Below are positions 42,687 through 52,154 of a DNA stretch of 64,000 nucleotides, in pieces (position 1 is the first letter of the stretch; each line of letters begins with the position of its first letter). The DNA comes from Nitrospira sp. (GTDB lineage Bacteria > Nitrospirota > Nitrospiria > Nitrospirales > Nitrospiraceae), in the NCBI GenBank assembly GCA_019636835.1, contig JAHBWU010000009.1, positions 1 through 64,000 on the forward strand. Direction: 5' to 3'. Under the pieces are notes generated by a model. It ran no database searches. It was given only the letters and a program-made list of their open reading frames with translations, and was not told the origin of the DNA. Both the position numbers and the translations under genes were made by a program.

Positions 42687-43031
42687 CTACCTTTCCTTTC
42701 CACAACGCTTCTCTTTCCATAGGATAAGTAGCGGCACCTTAGCGAGTCTCCCTGATTGGGTCAAGGAGATTGGAGCCATCGCAAATTGCCCTTGTGCAAT
42801 CTACATTCGCTTTGCACAGGCCAGGGAGAGGTGAGAGCCAAAACAATCATACTTTTGTAAAGAGGTCTTCGCAGTAGGTGTATCTGCGATCGCTGTGCGT
42901 TGGAAGTCACACTGGAAAATCGACGGGATAAAACTTACAGTCACCGCTAAACGTAAAGATGGCCCAGGGAATGCCCTGAGCCATCTTCAAGAAGGAGAAC
43001 GATGTGCCGTATCGATTTACGGCACGATCAG
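42687..43031. other. Spacer between purE and the export operon
   Basis: No gene is apparent; a 68-codon frame at 42895-43101 is a shadow. It holds the terminator of the hlyD operon and a second 8-bp hairpin GTGCCGTA/TACGGCAC (43004-43025) just after the hlyD stop. The left part should carry the purE promoter. Confidence 0.6.
42956..42987 (-). terminator. Intrinsic terminator of the tolC-ABC-hlyD operon
   Basis: On the minus strand AAGATGGCTCAGGG pairs with CCCTGGGCCATCTT (14 positions, one G-U) around a 4-base loop, followed by TACGTTTA. This is 45 bases past the hlyD stop codon. The strong stem and moderate T content suit a rho-independent terminator. Confidence 0.7.
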
Positions 43032-44477
43032 CTATTTACCACCAGGGGCCGCCACCTTGGGTGCAAACATCTCAAACACGCTCGGTGACCGCTCAAGATA
43101 ATCCGGTGGGAAGAAGTTAAAGCGCCGCCACAGTTCGTACCAAAGAGGAACACGATTCATGATCACCCAGCCCAATACCTTTGTGCCCTGTCTCACCTGA
43201 GCCTGCTCAGGCCATGGTTGAGGATCATCCGGGTCAGGAACGACCCAGAACCGGTAATTTCCTTTTCCATCGTCAATCTGGTCAACCACCTTGATGACGC
43301 CGCCGCGAGTACCCGCCATCAACGAAGGCCACGCCGGCAATGGAATGGCCGGCACGCCGAAAAACAAGATTCGAACCTTCCGCCCAGGTTTCAAAAGCGG
43401 AGAATCCAATCCTTCTGCCACCATTTCGATGGCTGGATCAGCGGCGAGAGGAGAAATAGTGACTAGATTCTCTCCCTGTTTCACCGTCTCATTAATACCG
43501 ACTTTGTTCATCTTGACGACGGTTCCACTCATCGGCGCTATAAGTTTAGCGGCTTCAATACGTTGTTGGACACCCTGTTGCCGGTACGAGATATCCGCCA
43601 ACTGCTCCGTCGCTTTGGCGGCTTCCGCCACCGCAGCATCGCGCGATGCTATCGCGTCCATGAGTCGTTGCTGTACATCCGCGGTAATTTGATCACGTCC
43701 GAAGCTCAGGGCTGACCGAGACTGTTCAGCAGCCAACAAACTGGCCTGTGCTGCCTGCAAACCTGCCTTTGTGCCGATTTCCGTCTGAATCGTTAACTCA
43801 AGTTCGCGTTGTGAAACCAACCCATCCCTGACAAGTTGCCGATGCCGATCGACATTGAGTTGCGCTGTGTGCACATCGATCTTAAGCTGTTCAACCTTCT
43901 GTTGTGCTTCCCGCACCCTGTTATCAGCTTCCACCACCCGGGCTTCGGCGGAAGGCACAGCAGCCTGGACCAACTTTTTCATCTCCCCAATTCGCCTATT
44001 GAGTTGATCTGCCCTGGCTAATGCTGCCTGGCGTGTCTGTTCTAGGGCTACCTTACGCTGTTCGAAGAGAGGAAGAATTTCAGGCGCCATGAAGGTTGGA
44101 TCGTAATCCTCCAACTCGCCGACGAGATCGCCTTTTTGAACCTTGACCCCTTCATAAATATGCCATGCCTTGATGCGGCCCGTAATCCGGGACTCAATCT
44201 GCTGTGGGCGATCGTAGGGAGTATAAGCGGACACTTTTCCATTTGCAGAAATGGTCTGCGTCCAAGGGACGAACTCAAGAATGATTAGAAAGAGCAGGAG
44301 AATCGTCAGGATCGCACGAGATGCCGTGAACATTCCGCCTGGAATCTGTACTGCTTCCCAGCATGGCAACTTAGCCAATGTGGGTCCCTGTTCGATGGTG
44401 ATCGCTTCCAAGCCTACCCCTCGCTTGACCAGCGCACGTTCCCCACTGCCTTCGACACCGCGACCTAGGCTAGCCAT
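43032..44477 (-). CDS. HlyD-family periplasmic adaptor (membrane fusion protein)
   Basis: 481-residue adaptor linking an inner-membrane transporter to an outer-membrane channel. One N-terminal membrane helix (ILTILLLFLIILEFV) is followed by a biotinyl-lipoyl half (ISANGKVSAYTPYDRPQQIES), a long helical hairpin (about 130-300), the returning lipoyl half (APMSGTVVKMNKVGINETVKQG) and a beta-barrel region. It resembles type I secretion and bacteriocin-export adaptors. It lies 45 bases after the ABC-like gene and ends the operon. Confidence 0.9.
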   Translation of the reverse strand: MASLGRGVEGSGERALVKRGVGLEAITIEQGPTLAKLPCWEAVQIPGGMFTASRAILTILLLFLIILEFVPWTQTISANGKVSAYTPYDRPQQIESRITGRIKAWHIYEGVKVQKGDLVGELEDYDPTFMAPEILPLFEQRKVALEQTRQAALARADQLNRRIGEMKKLVQAAVPSAEARVVEADNRVREAQQKVEQLKIDVHTAQLNVDRHRQLVRDGLVSQRELELTIQTEIGTKAGLQAAQASLLAAEQSRSALSFGRDQITADVQQRLMDAIASRDAAVAEAAKATEQLADISYRQQGVQQRIEAAKLIAPMSGTVVKMNKVGINETVKQGENLVTISPLAADPAIEMVAEGLDSPLLKPGRKVRILFFGVPAIPLPAWPSLMAGTRGGVIKVVDQIDDGKGNYRFWVVPDPDDPQPWPEQAQVRQGTKVLGWVIMNRVPLWYELWRRFNFFPPDYLERSPSVFEMFAPKVAAPGGK

Positions 44478-44522
44478 GGAGCCTCCATTAATTTACCGGT
44501 GTTGATTTGCCATTCCAACCGT

Positions 44523-46199
44523 TTACGCATGAGCATGGTGCAACATAATGCGACGATCGGCGTGATCCGTAAGATTGGGATCCGTCGACACGAAGATCAC
44601 AGACCATGCTTCGTCCTTAGAGCACAATCGACGCAACACACGCTCGCGCAACGATGGTTCGAGCGAGTGAATCAGGCCGTCAAATATGAGGACTTGCGGA
44701 CGCCCTAGGATCGCTCGGGCGAGGAGGATCTGCACGACGTGTGTCGGCGAAAGGGATTCTCCCAGTGAGGAGATATCGGACTTCACACCGCGCGCCAAAC
44801 CCTCGACATCCTCTTCCAGTTCGGTGAAACGAAGTGCCCAGTTGATATCATCATAGGTGACGTAGGAACGTCCCATGACGATATTTTCTTCGATCGTTCC
44901 CTTGATCAACGACAGCTGAGAATCGATCATGACGCTGCGGCATTGGTTGATGGCATTGGGCTCGATATAGCGGAGATCAACGCCATTGTACTGAACGACA
45001 CCATTAGTCGGTGTTTCGAGTCCACCTAACACTCTGGCCAACGCGGTTTTGGCTCCCGTGGTCCTCGCGTAGATACCGAGCTTCTCTCCCGGCGCTACAT
45101 CCAGGTTGAAGCCATCGAACACGGACGCGCCGTTATGAATCAAACTGACGCCTTTGCAGGTGACACGGACCCCTTGCGTCAAATGCTTAGGCAAAGCCAC
45201 AGCGGATTCGACTGAGACATAATCCTGTTCCTGCCTAAAGACCTCATCAAGATGTGTCAGGGACGCGAAGAAATAATACACATAGCCCATGTTTTTGATG
45301 AGGGAGTCAAAATTGATGACCAGTGCGCCGACGACCGCCTGAACAGCGACCAACTGCCCAAGGGTCAACTGCCCTGCTGCCATGAGATAGCCTGCGAGGC
45401 CAAGGGCTCCGGATTGTGCGATCGCTTGCCCGCTCACTGACCCAATATACTGCCGCACGAGAACGGCAAACCGCGCCTTCCGAGTTTCGACATACCGACT
45501 GACGAGATCATTCGTCTTCTGCATGAGAAATGGGCGGCTGTCAGTGGCTTTCAACTGCAACGAATTTCGCGAAATATCTTGAATCCAATTGAAGACGTCG
45601 TACTTCGCGTGAGACATGGTGAGCGTCGTCTTCAGCGCCCCGCGAGAGAGCACGAAAAACGTGATGCCGAACCCCGCCATGAGCAGAAGGTTGTACAGAA
45701 GAAAATACGGGTGATACACAACCAGCACGATCATGCCGACCGTTCCACCCACCACGACGTTCAACAGATCAATGAGCAGCGTGGATAAGGCGCGCTGCAT
45801 AAAGACTGTTTCAATAAAATAGTTCGCAAGCTCAGGCCGCATCCCTTTAAATCGATTCCGAGGGAGCTGTTCAACCATCGCCACGGCAACCCTTGCAAAG
45901 ATTCGCCGCTGGACGACGTCCACCGCGTAGAAATGGAAAGTCTTGAACAGGCCGACGAACAACAGGACCCCCAGCATGACGCTGGTCAGAGTCCAAATCA
46001 TGACCGGCTGAACCGCGTAGGAAAAGGTGCTGACCAACTCCTGCACGGTCAACGGGATGATAAGGGAAAAGAACCCAACGGCCAGGGCATAAGAAAAAAT
46101 CAGACTCATGATTTTTTTCTCAGCCCGCATGGCCACAGAAAGCTGCTTCATCAGCGCTTCGAACAGGCCCTGATAACTTTCGCCCTGAGGTTCTTTCAT
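44523..46199 (-). CDS. ABC-exporter-like protein with broken ATPase motifs
   Basis: 558 residues from ATG 46199 (GGGGGTG upstream): a six-helix exporter domain (about 1-320) and a nucleotide-binding-type domain. That domain keeps its shape (GEKLGIYA, GTIEENIVMG, LARAILGRPQVLIFDG) but its key residues are changed. Walker A is ARTTGAKT (378-385) instead of GxxxxGKT; the signature is LSPTH (483-487) instead of LSGGQ. Walker B Asp507 is followed by Gly508 instead of Glu, and the H-loop His is replaced (STDPN). ATP hydrolysis is therefore doubtful. The closest type is bacteriocin/T1SS exporters, lacking a peptidase domain. Confidence 0.88.
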   Translation of the reverse strand: MKEPQGESYQGLFEALMKQLSVAMRAEKKIMSLIFSYALAVGFFSLIIPLTVQELVSTFSYAVQPVMIWTLTSVMLGVLLFVGLFKTFHFYAVDVVQRRIFARVAVAMVEQLPRNRFKGMRPELANYFIETVFMQRALSTLLIDLLNVVVGGTVGMIVLVVYHPYFLLYNLLLMAGFGITFFVLSRGALKTTLTMSHAKYDVFNWIQDISRNSLQLKATDSRPFLMQKTNDLVSRYVETRKARFAVLVRQYIGSVSGQAIAQSGALGLAGYLMAAGQLTLGQLVAVQAVVGALVINFDSLIKNMGYVYYFFASLTHLDEVFRQEQDYVSVESAVALPKHLTQGVRVTCKGVSLIHNGASVFDGFNLDVAPGEKLGIYARTTGAKTALARVLGGLETPTNGVVQYNGVDLRYIEPNAINQCRSVMIDSQLSLIKGTIEENIVMGRSYVTYDDINWALRFTELEEDVEGLARGVKSDISSLGESLSPTHVVQILLARAILGRPQVLIFDGLIHSLEPSLRERVLRRLCSKDEAWSVIFVSTDPNLTDHADRRIMLHHAHA

Positions 46200-46339
46200 G
46201 AGCACCCCCAGTAATAAGTCAGAATGTGATTGATCGGCACCTTGCTGAATCTAATGACGACTGCACTACATCACGTCTGGGAACCTACTTCCAAGCCCAT
46301 CGAATGAACTATACGGTAGTACCACCCTTCTGCCTGACA

Positions 46340-47932
46340 TCAGTCGCGTCCCGGCAGTTTACGACCGGACGAGCCAGCCGCATGCAATGGGTCCCCGTAC
46401 TTGGCCAACACATCATTGGACACAGGCTTAGAGAGAGCCCCCCTTGCCCACAGCATCCCTCCTCGGGCCACCGCATAGTCTGCCTGGGCGCGGTAAAGCT
46501 CATAGGCCGCTTGGACGACGGCGCGCTCGCGCAGGTTAACGAACAGCACACTCGTCGCTCCCATATTAAACCGGGCTCGTTCGCCCTCTTCTAAGGTCTT
46601 GGCCAAGCGCAGAGCTTCCGTTGCGGCTGTCACTCGGTCTCGGGCCCGCACAATCGCTGAGAGCCAGTTATCCACGTCGATCGTAACTTGTCGCTCCGTG
46701 TATGCTATTTTCCATGTCAATCGTTGCTGCTGCGCTTCTGCGTGAAGGACCTTCCCTCGGGCGGCCCGATTGAACAACGGCATGCTGAAGAGAGTACCCA
46801 CTCGGTAGCCGAACCCTCCAATCCAATAGATACCGCCCACCGACGGCCCCCCCTCAACCTCCAGCTTTGGAAGCAGGTTATTCTTCGCCAGTTTCAGTTC
46901 GATATTGTTCAATTTGGCTTCAATGTAGAGATCGCGCACTTCTGGACGATCCTCCATGGCTTCCACCTTGAAGGCCGCCACATCCTCTTCGCTCGGCAAC
47001 GGCGTTTCCCCCTGAAATTCCGGGGCCCATTCAGGGCGAGGTGTCACAGGTTGGCCGTTTTCCCAGAGAAAGAGCGCCAGCTTATATTGCTCATACTCGA
47101 CCTTCCGCTGCGCGGCAATAGCAGCCTCTCGACGCCGCTGAACTTCTTCTCGGGCTTCGACCACATCGATCGGAGCAACCGCACCGGCTTTGGATCTGCC
47201 CTCAACCATGCGATAGCGCTCTTCCGCGACGGCCAGCGCACGCTTCACCACATCGGCTTGTTTGGCGGCGACCTGCCAATCCCAATATTGAACGGCCCCA
47301 GCGAGATAGAGATCCTGCCTTTTCTGGGCCACCGCGATCTCCGCCTGCGGCCCCGCGAGTTCGGCCTGTTGCAACGCGGCGTATTGGTCGTTGATCATGA
47401 ACCCGCGCATGAGATTGAAGGCTCCACCGACGATGGCCATTTGCTGCGGATAGAAAAGTTGCATGTCTGTAGGAAACGCCACCGGGCCGGTTTCTGGGGA
47501 ACGAAGGATAGGGCCGCCGGAGCCATTAAGAGTGGCATGAGTCCCAAAGCCGTTACGGATACCGCCGAAAATCTCGAACCCATAGGGGTGCCCGATCTTG
47601 AGCATGGTATCGCTATAGCCGGCAATCTCGGTATTCGGCACGCCTGAAACGTTCGTCAGATTCCACGTGAGATACCGGTCGATCTCGACCTCATTTCGAA
47701 ATTTCGGCTCCCACGCTCCCAACGCTTTCAGGATTTTCGCCCGAGCCTGCGCCCGCTCCAGTCCGGTGGCCCGGAGCAGCGGATGGGTCAGATCGATCCT
47801 GGCGAACACCTCTTCAATGGTCAGGGGAGCGGTACGAGTCGACTGAGCCTGCACCGCACTCGAGTCGATCACCGATTCCGCCAGTGTGGTCGCCGGCACA
47901 ATCATCAACGAGAACAACAATAGAAGGATCAA
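46340..47932 (-). CDS. TolC-family outer membrane protein, copy 1
   Basis: 530 residues from TTG 47932 (AAAGGAG upstream, in the leader shared by all three copies). A signal peptide (LIVPATTLA-like) precedes the outer-membrane efflux domains: PLTIEEVFARIDLTHPLL, the long helices (AVQYWDWQVAAKQADVV; LRLAKTLEEGERARFNMG) and a conserved end (GGMLWARGALSKP). It forms the outer-membrane channel of a tripartite system. It is the most diverged of the three tandem copies, and lies next to the ABC-like gene. Confidence 0.92.
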   Translation of the reverse strand: MILLLLFSLMIVPATTLAESVIDSSAVQAQSTRTAPLTIEEVFARIDLTHPLLRATGLERAQARAKILKALGAWEPKFRNEVEIDRYLTWNLTNVSGVPNTEIAGYSDTMLKIGHPYGFEIFGGIRNGFGTHATLNGSGGPILRSPETGPVAFPTDMQLFYPQQMAIVGGAFNLMRGFMINDQYAALQQAELAGPQAEIAVAQKRQDLYLAGAVQYWDWQVAAKQADVVKRALAVAEERYRMVEGRSKAGAVAPIDVVEAREEVQRRREAAIAAQRKVEYEQYKLALFLWENGQPVTPRPEWAPEFQGETPLPSEEDVAAFKVEAMEDRPEVRDLYIEAKLNNIELKLAKNNLLPKLEVEGGPSVGGIYWIGGFGYRVGTLFSMPLFNRAARGKVLHAEAQQQRLTWKIAYTERQVTIDVDNWLSAIVRARDRVTAATEALRLAKTLEEGERARFNMGATSVLFVNLRERAVVQAAYELYRAQADYAVARGGMLWARGALSKPVSNDVLAKYGDPLHAAGSSGRKLPGRD

Positions 47933-47957
47933 GGAAGGATGCTCCTTTGTTGCCGAA

Positions 47958-49532
47958 TTAATCGCGTCCCGGTTGTTTGTAGCCGTTCATGCCAGCCGCC
48001 GTCAGAGGGTTCCCGTACTTGGCCAACTCGCTTTCGGGCCACGGCTTGGACAAGTTCCCCCTGGCCCATAACATCCCGCCTTTGGACACCGCGTAGTCGG
48101 CCTGCGCCCGATACAGCTCGTACGCCGAATCCACCACGTTGCGCTCACGGAGGTTCACAAAAAGGACGGTGGTCGCGCCCATATTGAACCGGGTCCGTTC
48201 GCCCTCCTCCAACGTCTTGGCCAACCGCAGGGCTTCCGTCGCCGCCTTCACCCGGTCTCTGGCGCGTACTTGGGCCGAAAGCCAGTTATCCACGTCGACC
48301 TTGACTTGTTGCTCGGTGTACAGCTGCTTCAGGACCAACTGTTGCTGGTCCGCTTCCGCGGTCATGACCTTCCCACGCCCTTCCCGCTGGAACAGCGGCA
48401 TCTCAAACTGCATTCCGTAGTGATACCCCACGCCCACAATCCAGTCCGCTGCGGCATCCACTCGTCCCCCCTCAATATTCAACTTCGGGAGCAGATAGTT
48501 CTTGGCGAGCTTGAGATCGATATTGTTCATCTTGGCTTCGATGTAGAGGTCCCGCACTTCCGGCCGATCTTCTTTCGCCTCCACTTTATAGGCCGCGACC
48601 TCGTCTTTGGTCGGGAGCGGCGTCTCTCCCTGGAACTCCGGTGCCCACTCAGGTCGTGGGGTCACTGGCTCGCCGTTCTCCCAGAGGAAGAGGGATAGAT
48701 GGTACTGCTCATACTCCACCTGCCGTTGCGCGGCGATCGCAGCCTCTCGCCGATTCTGAACCTCTTTGTTGGCCTCGACGACATCAAGCGGCGCCGCCTT
48801 CCCACCCTTGGCTAGCCCTTGCACCTGAATGAGGCGTTCTTCCGCGACGGCCAGCGCACGCTTCACCACATCGGCTTGTTTGACGGCGACCTGCCAATCC
48901 CAGTACTGGACGGCCCCGGCGAGATACAGATCCTGCCGTTTCTGCGCGACCTTGATCTCCGCCTGCGGACCCGCGAGTTCGGCCTGTTGCAACTCGGCGT
49001 ACTCGTCGTTCATCATGAATCCACGCAGCAGCTTGAACTCCCCACCGAAGATCATTTGCTGCTGAGGATAGAAGAGGGTTACATCAGGGATCCAAGCAGC
49101 CGTCCCTGCTTGCCCAGCTTGCACAGGAGGGTGCCCGGTAGCCAGTTGATCCCCGAAGCCGTTACGGATCCCGCCCATGATCCGGAAGCCCCAGGGATGC
49201 CCGACCTCAAGCTTGCTGTCGTTAAATCCCCCCGTATACACAGCTTCGGCAAACAGGAAATTCCAATCTTGAATACGAGCGGCCTGTGTAATGTTCTTGA
49301 ACGTCGGTTCCCAGGCCCCGAGCGCCTTTTGGATCTTCGCCCGGGCCTCAATTCGCTCGATCCCGGTCGCCCGAAGCAGCGGATGCGTCAACTCAATACG
49401 GGCAAGCACCTCGCTGATGGTCAGGGGCTCGGTGCGGGCGGACTGCGCTTTCAACGCGCTTGAATCATGCACCGGTTCCGCCAGTGTCGTCACGGGAAGC
49501 AAGAGCAGAATCACGAATAATAGAGCGGCCAT
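47958..49532 (-). CDS. TolC-family outer membrane protein, copy 2
   Basis: 524 residues from ATG 49532, preceded by AAGGAGCATCC; the frame extends to 49667 but that part overlaps copy 3. A signal peptide ends at TTLAEP. Large blocks are almost identical to copy 3 at DNA level with a constant offset of 1598 bases, for example 48072-48270 and 48781-49018. The middle variable segment (ITQAARIQDWNFLFAEAVYTG) differs, presumably in external loops or the periplasmic tip. It follows copy 3 by 23 bases. Confidence 0.92.
   Translation of the reverse strand: MAALLFVILLLLPVTTLAEPVHDSSALKAQSARTEPLTISEVLARIELTHPLLRATGIERIEARAKIQKALGAWEPTFKNITQAARIQDWNFLFAEAVYTGGFNDSKLEVGHPWGFRIMGGIRNGFGDQLATGHPPVQAGQAGTAAWIPDVTLFYPQQQMIFGGEFKLLRGFMMNDEYAELQQAELAGPQAEIKVAQKRQDLYLAGAVQYWDWQVAVKQADVVKRALAVAEERLIQVQGLAKGGKAAPLDVVEANKEVQNRREAAIAAQRQVEYEQYHLSLFLWENGEPVTPRPEWAPEFQGETPLPTKDEVAAYKVEAKEDRPEVRDLYIEAKMNNIDLKLAKNYLLPKLNIEGGRVDAAADWIVGVGYHYGMQFEMPLFQREGRGKVMTAEADQQQLVLKQLYTEQQVKVDVDNWLSAQVRARDRVKAATEALRLAKTLEEGERTRFNMGATTVLFVNLRERNVVDSAYELYRAQADYAVSKGGMLWARGNLSKPWPESELAKYGNPLTAAGMNGYKQPGRD
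48781..49018 (-). repeat. Near-identical duplicated block shared by tolC copies 2 and 3
   Basis: The DNA at 48781-49018 recurs at 50379-50616 with only a few mismatches, and 48072-48270 recurs at 49670-49868, both with an offset of 1598 bases. Copy 1 is more diverged. This fits a recent tandem duplication or ongoing gene conversion, and makes the region prone to recombination. Confidence 0.85.
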
Positions 49533-49555
49533 CGAAGGATGCTCCTTGTGCCGGA

Positions 49556-51112
49556 TTAATCGCGGCCCGGTTGTTTGTAACCGTACATGCCCGCTGCCGT
49601 CAGAGGGTTCCCATACTTCGCCAAGGACTCCGTCGGCCAGGGCTTCGACAATAGTCCTCTCGCCCACAGCATCCCGCCTTTGGACACCGCGTAGTCGGCC
49701 TGCGCCCGATACAGCTGATACGCCGATTCCACCACGTTGCGCTCACGGAGGTTCACAAAGAGGACGGTGGTCGCGCCCATATTGAATCGGGTTCGTTCGC
49801 CCTCCTCCAACGTCTTGGCCAACCGCAGGGCTTCCGTCGCCGCCTTCACCCGGTCTCTGGCGCGCACGATCGCCGAGAGCCAGTTATCCACGTCGAAGCT
49901 GACTTGTTGCTCGATATATTGCTGTTTCAACGCCAATTGTTGTTGGCCCACTTCCGCGGCCATGACCTTCCCCCGCGCTTCGCGCTGGAACAGCGGCATC
50001 TCAGCGTGTATGCCGATTCGATACCCGATTCCCACAATCCAGTCCACGGCGCCAGGTGTCGGCCCCCCTTCAAGAACCAATTTCGGGAGCAGTTTGTTCT
50101 TGGCGAGCTTGATGTCGATATTGTTCTTCTTGGCTTCGATGTAGAGGTCCCGCACTTCCGGCCGATCTTCTTTCGCATCTGCTTTGTAGGCCGCGACCTC
50201 GTCTTCGGTCGGGAGCGGCGTTTCTCCCTGGAATTCCGGCGCCCATTCCGGCCGAGGGGTCACCGGCTCGTTCTTCTCCCAGAGAAAGAGAGACAGTTTG
50301 TACTGCTCATACTCCACCTTCCGTTGCGCGGCGATCGCAGCCTCTCGCCGCTTCTGAACCTCTTGGCTCACCTCGACCACATCAAGCGGCGCCGCCTTCC
50401 CACCCTTGGCTAGCCCTTGCACCTGAATGAGGCGTTCTTCCGCGACGGCCAGCGCACGCTTCACCACATCGGCTTGTTTGACGGCGACCTGCCAATCCCA
50501 GTACTGGACGGCCCCGGCGAGATACAGATCCTGCCGTTTCTGCGCGACCTTGATCTCCGCCTGCGGCCCCGCGAGTTCGGCCTGTTGAAACTCGGCGTAC
50601 TCGTCGTTCATCATGAGGCCGCGCAGCAACTGGAACGACCCGCTAACGATGAGCATCTGCTGAGGATAGAAGCCCAGAAGATCATGCGGGATAATAGCGG
50701 TGAAGTTCTGATTGGCGCGATCCCCGAAGCCGTGGCGGAGTCCGCCCTGGACCCGGAAGCCCCAGGGATGCCCGACATCGAGCTTGCTGTCGTTATATCC
50801 CCCCGTCGAAAAAAACGGTAGGAAGGGAGACGTCGTGAGATTCCAAGTGTTATAACGTTGGGCCTCTGTAATGTTTTTGAACGTCGGTTCCCATGCCGCA
50901 AGCGCCTTCAGGATCTTTGCCCGGGCCTTCGTTCGCTCGGCTCCCGTCGCCTGAAGCAGCGGATGCGTCAACTCGATACGAGCCAGCACTTCATCGATGG
51001 TCAGTGGAGCGGTGCGCGTCGACTGAGCCTGCAATACGCTGGAATCATGAATCGGTTCCGCCAGTGCGGTCATTGGCAGGAGAGTCACAAGGGCCAATAC
51101 CAGAGCAATCAT
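49556..51112 (-). CDS. TolC-family outer membrane protein, copy 3 (first in operon)
   Basis: 518 residues from ATG 51112, chosen over GTG 51130 because AAAGGAGCATCC precedes it as in the other copies. A signal peptide (LVLALVTLLPMTALAEP) is followed by PLTIDEVLARIELTHPLL and the long helices typical of TolC. The variable segment includes NLTTSPFLPFFSTGG. It is the first gene after the divergent LysR-regulator promoter region, so it is probably the most directly regulated. Confidence 0.92.
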   Translation of the reverse strand: MIALVLALVTLLPMTALAEPIHDSSVLQAQSTRTAPLTIDEVLARIELTHPLLQATGAERTKARAKILKALAAWEPTFKNITEAQRYNTWNLTTSPFLPFFSTGGYNDSKLDVGHPWGFRVQGGLRHGFGDRANQNFTAIIPHDLLGFYPQQMLIVSGSFQLLRGLMMNDEYAEFQQAELAGPQAEIKVAQKRQDLYLAGAVQYWDWQVAVKQADVVKRALAVAEERLIQVQGLAKGGKAAPLDVVEVSQEVQKRREAAIAAQRKVEYEQYKLSLFLWEKNEPVTPRPEWAPEFQGETPLPTEDEVAAYKADAKEDRPEVRDLYIEAKKNNIDIKLAKNKLLPKLVLEGGPTPGAVDWIVGIGYRIGIHAEMPLFQREARGKVMAAEVGQQQLALKQQYIEQQVSFDVDNWLSAIVRARDRVKAATEALRLAKTLEEGERTRFNMGATTVLFVNLRERNVVESAYQLYRAQADYAVSKGGMLWARGLLSKPWPTESLAKYGNPLTAAGMYGYKQPGRD

Positions 51113-51191
51113 GAGGGATGCTCCTTTCACATCAAGTGGCGGACGGCGCCCACAGTAGCAATCTCCCGTTCGTTTTTCAAAATAGATAAAA

Positions 51192-51216
51192 CGGATTGGA
51201 GTTATCGGCTAATCCG
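51192..51216. promoter_or_regulatory. Inverted repeat CGGATT-N13-AATCCG, candidate LysR operator
   Basis: Between tolC copy 3 and the divergent LysR gene, CGGATT (51192-51197) and AATCCG (51211-51216) form a dyad. LysR regulators usually bind such dyads (T-N11-A type) between themselves and a divergent target. It is adjacent to an A/T-rich stretch (ttttcaaaatagataaaa) suitable for a promoter. Confidence 0.5.
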
Positions 51217-51254
51217 ATGTATAGTGTCTTCCCTAATTCGAGGCCTAGGGCCAT

Positions 51255-52154
51255 ATGGATTGGCTGAACTATCATCATCTGCTGTATTTCTGGTCCGTCG
51301 CCAAGCACGGGACCGTGACGAAAGCCTGCGAAGAACTCCGTCTGGCGCAGCCCACGATCAGCGGACAGATCCACCTCTTGGAAAATACGTTGGGAGAAAA
51401 GTTATTCATACGAACCGGCCGCCGCCTGGCGCTGACGGAGATGGGCCAGCTCGTGTTCAAGTACGCGGAGGACATCTTCGCGACCGGTCAAGAGCTGATG
51501 AACACCGTGAAGGGGCAGGGCAATGGACATCCGACGCGGCTGATCGTCGGCATTGCGGACGCGGTGCCGAAACCGTTGGCGACTCAGCTCCTCAAATCGG
51601 CTTTGAAGCTGTATCGGCCGACGCGGTTGATCTGCCAGGAAGACAAACTTCGCCAACTCTTGACCGATCTGACGGCCCATCGATTGGATCTCGTGATCGC
51701 GGACACACCGGCCCCATCGGGCATCAAGGAGCACACGTATAACCATCCCTTGGGCGAATCGGGAGTCACACTGTTTGCCACGGCGAAGCTGGCCGGTCAG
51801 TATCGTCGCAGCTTCCCCCAATCACTTCGCGACGCACCATTACTCCTTCCTACCTCCAATGCCATGCTTCGGCGGCTGTTGGACCAATGGCTGGTCAACT
51901 ACGGAGTGCAACCCAACATTGTGGGGGAGTTCGACGACAGCGCGACATTGAAAGCGTTCGGACAGGACGGGCATGGGATCTTCCCCGGCGCATCGGTGAT
52001 CGGGAAGGAAATCTGTCGCCAATATCGAGTGCAGGTGGTCGGCCAAGTGGAAGGACTCAAGCAGCACTTCTACGCCATCACCGTGGAGCGGCGGCTGAAG
52101 CACCCGATCGTTCTCACCCTCGTCCGAACCGCCCGTCGCGAGCTGCTCAGTTAG
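51255..52154 (+). CDS. LysR-family regulator, NhaR-like
   Basis: 299 residues. The N-terminal winged helix (NYHHLLYFWSVAKHGTVTKACEELRLAQPTISGQIH, split by family positions) and the effector domain (LIVGIADAVPKPLATQLL; HRLDLVIADTPAP) closely resemble NhaR, which in enterobacteria responds to Na+ and pH. It is transcribed away from the tolC x3-ABC-hlyD operon, the classic LysR layout, so it probably controls that operon and itself. The inducer is not known; no Na+/H+ antiporter gene is in the window. Confidence 0.9.
   Translation: MDWLNYHHLLYFWSVAKHGTVTKACEELRLAQPTISGQIHLLENTLGEKLFIRTGRRLALTEMGQLVFKYAEDIFATGQELMNTVKGQGNGHPTRLIVGIADAVPKPLATQLLKSALKLYRPTRLICQEDKLRQLLTDLTAHRLDLVIADTPAPSGIKEHTYNHPLGESGVTLFATAKLAGQYRRSFPQSLRDAPLLLPTSNAMLRRLLDQWLVNYGVQPNIVGEFDDSATLKAFGQDGHGIFPGASVIGKEICRQYRVQVVGQVEGLKQHFYAITVERRLKHPIVLTLVRTARRELLS

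Follow-up and report, generated by a model that had tools for sequence, protein, structure and literature searches.

A gene cluster of Nitrospira appears to encode a tripartite, envelope-spanning machine whose inner-membrane ABC protein has lost its catalytic residues, while its NBD is under stronger purifying selection than its membrane domain. Our analysis concerned a 64,000-nucleotide stretch of DNA (hereafter, the window) from a Nitrospira metagenome genome (3.85 Mb, about 88% complete), in which this pseudo-ABC is encoded together with one HlyD-like adaptor and three TolC-like channels. With credence just short of even, we read the cluster as an envelope conduit, in which a non-hydrolysing pseudo-ABC, the adaptor, and swappable TolC-like channels would together sustain movement that is not driven by ATP. 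Judged from the sequences, the unusual core, and with it the newness, lies in the pseudo-ABC-HlyD-TolC trio, a combination found beyond Nitrospirota too, and the three channels look to be a Nitrospira elaboration and not the essence, since a single TolC accompanies the same pseudo-ABC and adaptor in relatives.

An earlier, sequence-only reading had described five minus-strand genes separated by short gaps, and all five open reading frames are indeed present. Together with the divergent regulator, these are:

43032..44477, minus strand: HlyD-like periplasmic adaptor (ORF and Pfam HlyD_3; RLS TolC-docking motif)
44523..46199, minus strand: pseudo-ABC half-exporter, membrane domain plus NBD (ATG start, GTG at 46205 as alternative; Pfam ABC_tran)
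46340..47932, minus strand: T3, TolC-family channel, tandem paralogue with TTG start and 70% identity with T1 (ORF and Pfam OEP)
47958..49532, minus strand: T2, TolC-family channel, tandem paralogue with 80% identity with T1 overall (ORF and Pfam OEP)
49556..51112, minus strand: T1, TolC-family outer-membrane channel of 518 aa (ORF, Pfam OEP, and TolC fold by AlphaFold2/Foldseek/VIA-align)
51255..52154, plus strand: divergent LysR-type regulator, NhaR-like (NCBIfam NF008284, 241.7 bits vs a cut-off of 219)

Transcription on the minus strand runs in the order T1, T2, T3, ABC, and adaptor, with intergenic gaps of 23 nt (T1-T2), 25 nt (T2-T3), 140 nt (T3-ABC), and 45 nt (ABC-adaptor), and the cluster is flanked by the NhaR-type gene upstream and by purE-purK downstream. 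The Pfam OEP matches of T1-T3 range from E 8e-34 to 4e-27, and the structural superposition (VIA-align) of the AlphaFold2 model of T1 with Klebsiella TolC (7ng8) gave a Z of 25.4 and a rmsd of 3.9 over 380 residues. For the ABC protein, Pfam ABC_tran matches at E 1e-8 and the best NCBIfam matches are peptide/protein exporters; its AlphaFold model (pLDDT 45.8) was set aside.

ABC exporters are thought to require at least one working ATP site. By sequence, the window ABC lacks the combination of Walker A/B, catalytic Glu, LSGGQ, and H-loop that marks a working ATPase, as its NBD has ARTTGAKT at Walker A, SPTH in place of LSGGQ, FDG in place of DE, and ST where the H-loop AH would be. The Nitrospira copies without exception lack the catalytic glutamate (FDG instead), LSGGQ (SPTH or APTH instead), and the histidine of the H-loop (ST or SN instead), and Walker A is worn (ARTTGAKT), with its lysine usually kept; throughout Nitrospirota, replacements affect the catalytic Glu, the signature motif, the Q-loop Gln, and the H-loop His alike. 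As a control, the canonical exporter encoded on contig 30 of the same genome has GRSGSGKST, LSGGQ, LIFDE, and AHR intact in the alignment. The ATPase that the sequence-only reading had called broken has thus lost its motifs in a state fixed through the whole lineage. Moreover, the domain lacking these residues is the more strongly selected one: pairwise dN/dS has a median of 0.039 in the NBD, compared with 0.075 in the membrane domain (approximate values, dS being high). Gene decay was ruled out by the dN/dS values and by the universal conservation of the gene.

These same observations bear on whether the cluster is a type I secretion system of the ordinary kind whose ATPase is atypical yet works, which we regard as very unlikely. 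Its gene set and fold family do agree with such a system, and the Walker A lysine and Walker B aspartate remain in the window protein, but the replacements span Nitrospirota, members in other phyla are worn differently, and the NCBIfam type I secretion ABC models give about 83-108 bits on the window ABC against cut-offs of 510-726. Because that lysine and aspartate survive, some residual ATP chemistry is conceivable. The earlier proposal of a type I-like export variant gains support in the form of an ATPase-dead ABC protein, whose catalytic motifs are lost and whose constraint is kept.

Alternatively, the pseudo-ABC could pair with an intact half-transporter encoded elsewhere, giving a heterodimeric exporter of the TM287/288 or TAP kind, in which one ATP site works. 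Exporters having one degenerate site are well known (PMC7756269), and in several genera of Nitrospirales, the cluster has two ABC half-transporter genes side by side, suggesting that different chains dimerise there. These adjacent pairs, however, are degenerate in both members, their NBD motifs being worn in other ways, as in the distant members at large. Moreover, no second member of the pseudo-ABC family was found in the window genome, where the other ABC proteins have at most 31% identity, mostly over the NBD, and an intact partner is never part of the conserved cluster. A heterodimer of this kind is therefore improbable, even if a partner ATPase might possibly be supplied from elsewhere. 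Two adjacent pseudo-ABC genes with both ATP sites degenerate occur in single clusters at loci L092, L093, L094, L095, and L098, and such pairs may form a heterodimer of two pseudo-enzymes.

A protein search against 85,000 species genomes yielded 38 loci, almost all from Nitrospira. Every locus that extends far enough (n = 26) has the divergent NhaR gene, TolC array, ABC, adaptor, purE, and purK, and 25 of the 26 loci reaching the regulator keep the T1-T2-T3-ABC-adaptor order with at least three TolC genes, the remaining locus having a collapsed array (L017:7121-9873). Elsewhere, the array is expanded to four full-length copies plus fragments (L016:2373-9873), and at L033:3-4970, the triple-TolC cluster is adjoined by a second pseudo-ABC, adaptor, and NhaR-like gene of the other type. 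A conserved tolC-tolC-tolC-ABC-hlyD linkage had been named beforehand as a test, and since order and linkage are kept in tens of genomes, the objection of absent linkage falls away. By census, the pseudo-ABC is present in 74 of 79 genomes of the genus, at least three TolCs of the window family in 53 of the 79, and the pseudo-ABC in 77 of 296 genomes of a phylum sample; the genus version of the cluster is close to universal in Nitrospira, a nitrifier genus of global importance.

The cultured Nitrospira moscoviensis and most sister genera have instead an adaptor-TolC-ABC cluster with a single TolC, which occupies the equivalent site, with purEK on one side and an rsuA-speB-like block of genes on the other. 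Because the sister lineages hold this one-TolC form at that site, the TolC triplication is most simply read as a derived feature in Nitrospira. The same reading is given to the NhaR partner, although it is qualified by an NhaR-like gene that also lies beside a single-TolC cluster in a more distant family of the order (two genomes, L103 and L104).

Outside Nitrospirota, the adaptor in a tblastn search of 72,556 plasmids gave only 20 records, from Persicobacter, Aureibacter, Riemerella, and Sphingomonadales, and in all 13 of the non-Nitrospirota loci opened (Bacteroidota and sphingomonads), the adaptor gene adjoins both a degenerate ABC gene and a TolC gene, in the order ABC-HlyD-TolC. The C-terminal adaptor signature WYELWR..N.FP (LWYELWRRFNFFPP in the window) is common, with small variations, to Nitrospirota, Bacteroidota, and sphingomonads. 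The RLS TolC-docking motif, as defined in PMC3391258, is found at residues 211-222 of the window adaptor (RHRQLVRDGLVS), and its site and spacing are kept in all Nitrospirota adaptors. Which residues are degenerate varies between phyla; for instance, Walker A and the glutamate persist in one Riemerella copy, from which the Walker B aspartate, LSGGQ, and H-loop are gone. No member of the trio family with an intact NBD was found among the Nitrospirota copies and the 13 loci, the latter being a limited sample. Tentatively, and with rather less than even confidence, we propose a machine family present in at least Nitrospirota, Bacteroidota, and Alphaproteobacteria, which would have a permanent pseudo-enzyme in the place of the motor, transport without ABC hydrolysis, and, in Nitrospira, a three-channel cassette. 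A literature search, with most subscription papers beyond its reach, found no description of the degenerate ABC-HlyD-TolC trio. In three sphingomonad loci, a LysR-type gene adjoins the trio. At L120:571-7365 (Sphingobium plasmid pHAL16), such a gene follows the trio, and a DUF2309 protein, which we take to be DabA-like, comes directly before the trio.

In sister lineages, the ABC gene is usually followed by that of a four-helix-bundle membrane protein of 260 residues, and this sensory protein (MCP-type, without an output domain) was noticed 3' of the pseudo-ABC at L041:11679-12458, L095:10484-11272, and 10 further loci. Two stand-alone pseudo-ABC genes, without adaptor or TolC (L096:4973-9513 and L110:2812-7357), each directly precede genes for a histidine kinase and an NtrC-like response regulator. 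Such neighbours would befit an envelope sensor or scaffold, that is, a complex that spans the envelope, reports its state, and gates a regulator or kinase while exporting nothing, and a strongly constrained dead NBD would suit a ligand-responsive module. In fact, the stand-alone genes of these two genomes suit signalling equally and thus count against the conduit. Still, we consider a sensor unlikely, as every tripartite locus keeps a complete adaptor and outer-membrane channel with the docking motif, a pure sensor needs no TolC, still less three, and the four-helix-bundle gene has been lost from the triple-TolC window lineage, where a larger protein with a weak match is all that is left.

As for the channels, the variable segments on which the sequence-only reading had remarked are located in the β-barrel strands and loops. 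Paralogues within a genome have 77-87% identity in the helices and 39-50% in the barrel segments, and the TolC dN/dS is 0.29-0.46 for the barrel, as inflated by loop alignment, vs 0.07-0.12 for the helices. In the barrel tree, every copy (78 of 78) has as its nearest neighbour a copy from another genome that holds the same position in the array, while the helix trees place 4 of 26 T1 and 4 of 26 T2 copies nearest to their same-genome sister, with T3 always separate. Likewise, fourfold-site differences between T1 and T2 of the window amount to 11% in helix 1 and 25% in the barrel segment. Taken together, the sister grouping in the helix trees, the position-wise barrel tree, and the lower helix divergence have the pattern of what is probably occasional T1-T2 gene conversion, limited to the docking part and with the barrels kept distinct. 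Moreover, since the adaptor-facing tips are almost identical in T1, T2, and T3 (e.g. RFNMGATTVLFVN vs RFNMGATSVLFVN) and the adaptor keeps its RLS motif, all three should dock on one adaptor. Interchangeable channels, possibly mixed, on a single adaptor would thus be the best reading, and hetero-oligomeric channels are possible. Interchangeability had been suggested beforehand, and it fits the near-identical tips, the one adaptor, and the divergent barrels, with the docking itself being what we infer from them. The companion idea of a different export partner for each channel is left without support, because the cluster has only one adaptor and one ABC.

TolC is the receptor for some phages, and the triple array could then serve mainly for surface variation in the evasion of phages or predators, with a secondary role in export. 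The concentration of differences in barrel strands and loops, the tandem copies, and the two loci with four full-length copies and with a collapsed array are consistent with this. However, the barrels track array position across species, which argues for three stable types and not for rapid reshuffling, and the dN/dS values are below 1 even with the inflation from loop alignment. As the main explanation, surface variation is accordingly rather unlikely, though it may coexist with the conduit.

In T1, TolC repeat 1 (residues 77-161; window 50600-50900) is predicted with four membrane strands, and the predicted six strands per protomer, instead of four, would make an 18-strand barrel; this observation also covers loci L001 and L002. 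As a unique mark of the family, the extra repeat-1 β-hairpin was rejected, since two out of eight further OEP proteins in the genome have a segment just as long.

Expression signals were located as follows:

42954..42989, minus strand: strong hairpin of 16 bp, 3' of the adaptor gene (-27.1 kcal/mol, z -5.6)
46200..46339, minus strand: T3-ABC gap with conserved ATAGTTCATTCG.TGGGCTTGG and CACATTCTGACTTATTACTGGGG blocks, a possible internal promoter/control element
51152..51180, minus strand: candidate T1 promoter, TTGAAA, 17 nt, TGC-TACTGT (extended -10), from sequence and conserved columns
51204..51218, no strand assigned: inverted repeat ATCGG-ATTAG-CCGAT, candidate LysR-type binding site from a 26-locus alignment

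In the NhaR-T1 gap of the 26 aligned loci, an ATCGG-N5-CCGAT-type repeat is kept (imperfect in some loci) and is followed by TTGAAA-N17-TACTGT with TGC ahead of the second hexamer. The window repeat sits about 66 bp upstream of the inferred T1 start, and a consensus promoter scan did not pick up the candidate promoter. A repeat and then a promoter at such spacing is the usual geometry of LysR-type activated promoters, and NhaR-like regulation of the T1 array through these two candidate elements is what we infer. The regulator clears the NCBIfam NhaR equivalog cut-off, and an NhaR-like gene adjoins the cluster in all 26 related loci extending that far. In Nitrospira, NhaR has been listed as a salt/pH stress regulator, by homology only (PMC5596200). 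Within the cluster, a leader of the AAAGGAGCATCC / AAGGAGCATCC type stands 5' of the T1, T2, and T3 starts, in agreement with the common leader described earlier; its AAGGAG is an ordinary Shine-Dalgarno, and the remaining leader sequence is retained by descent. The two blocks of the 140-nt T3-ABC gap are strongly conserved in 34 loci, and an Rfam search of this gap gave no match. Because of this conservation, an internal promoter is likely and the ABC-adaptor pair may have its own transcription start, which makes the operon as a single transcript, as formerly supposed, doubtful. The strong terminator that had been placed at 42956-42987 stands as far as hairpin strength is concerned; it has no T-run and no listing in the terminator scan, and is likely a terminator with a weak T tail.

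Returning to the conduit, it would be built along the lines of a machine for type I secretion or ABC efflux. In the inner membrane would sit the pseudo-ABC, most likely as a homodimer, which would retain the exporter fold and possibly nucleotide binding, canonical ATP hydrolysis presumably being impossible. The HlyD-like adaptor, with its docking motif intact, would join it to a TolC-like channel, whose gene is tripled in this lineage under a putative NhaR-like regulator. Sharing their periplasmic docking tips, the three channels could be swapped or mixed on one adaptor, with the outer-membrane barrel and surface loops having diversified. The driving force for movement would then be a gradient, either of ions or of the substrate itself, and the NBD pair would act as a gate or sensor, not as a motor. 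A small exported peptide had been anticipated near homologous loci, and no linked substrate gene was found in a non-exhaustive search of short peptides, window-type clusters having only housekeeping neighbours and no conserved additional ORF. If true, the conduit would mean that an ABC exporter fold can serve a trans-envelope machine without its own ATPase, and it would offer a natural system for testing a long-standing question, whether ABC folds can be energized other than by ATP. Its significance stems from the catalytic residues being gone in every member tested and from the strong conservation of the NBD in Nitrospira.

Among known systems, type I secretion (HlyB-HlyD-TolC) is alike in its three components, as the cluster has an ABC exporter-like half-transporter, an HlyD-like adaptor with a docking motif of the RLS/RLT type, and a TolC-fold channel (OEP hits, VIA-align). 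In contrast, the window-family NBD is without catalytic residues in each member tested, the window ABC has no peptidase-like N-terminal domain, no linked substrate was found at the window cluster, the adaptor ends in its own C-terminal signature, and there are three TolC genes. Heterodimeric exporters (TM287/288, TmrAB, and TAP) similarly have degenerate nucleotide-binding residues in an exporter-type protein. However, they retain one consensus ATPase site in the dimer (PMC7756269), whereas no closely related intact partner was found in the window genome and the adjacent pairs elsewhere are both degenerate. The SecA_DEAD-HlyD-OEP loci, reported from Nitrospirae as well (Kamneva et al., 2015; PMC4452313), are alike in combining HlyD and OEP proteins in the absence of a functional ABC transporter, but have a second SecA and no ABC homolog. 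Only one SecA is found in the window genome (about 88% complete), on another contig, and a secondary SecA was thus ruled out as an energizer. Lastly, MacAB-TolC and RND efflux systems share the adaptor and TolC-type channel, though the window inner-membrane protein is an exporter-type ABC half-transporter with a fused TMD-NBD, and not MacB or RND.
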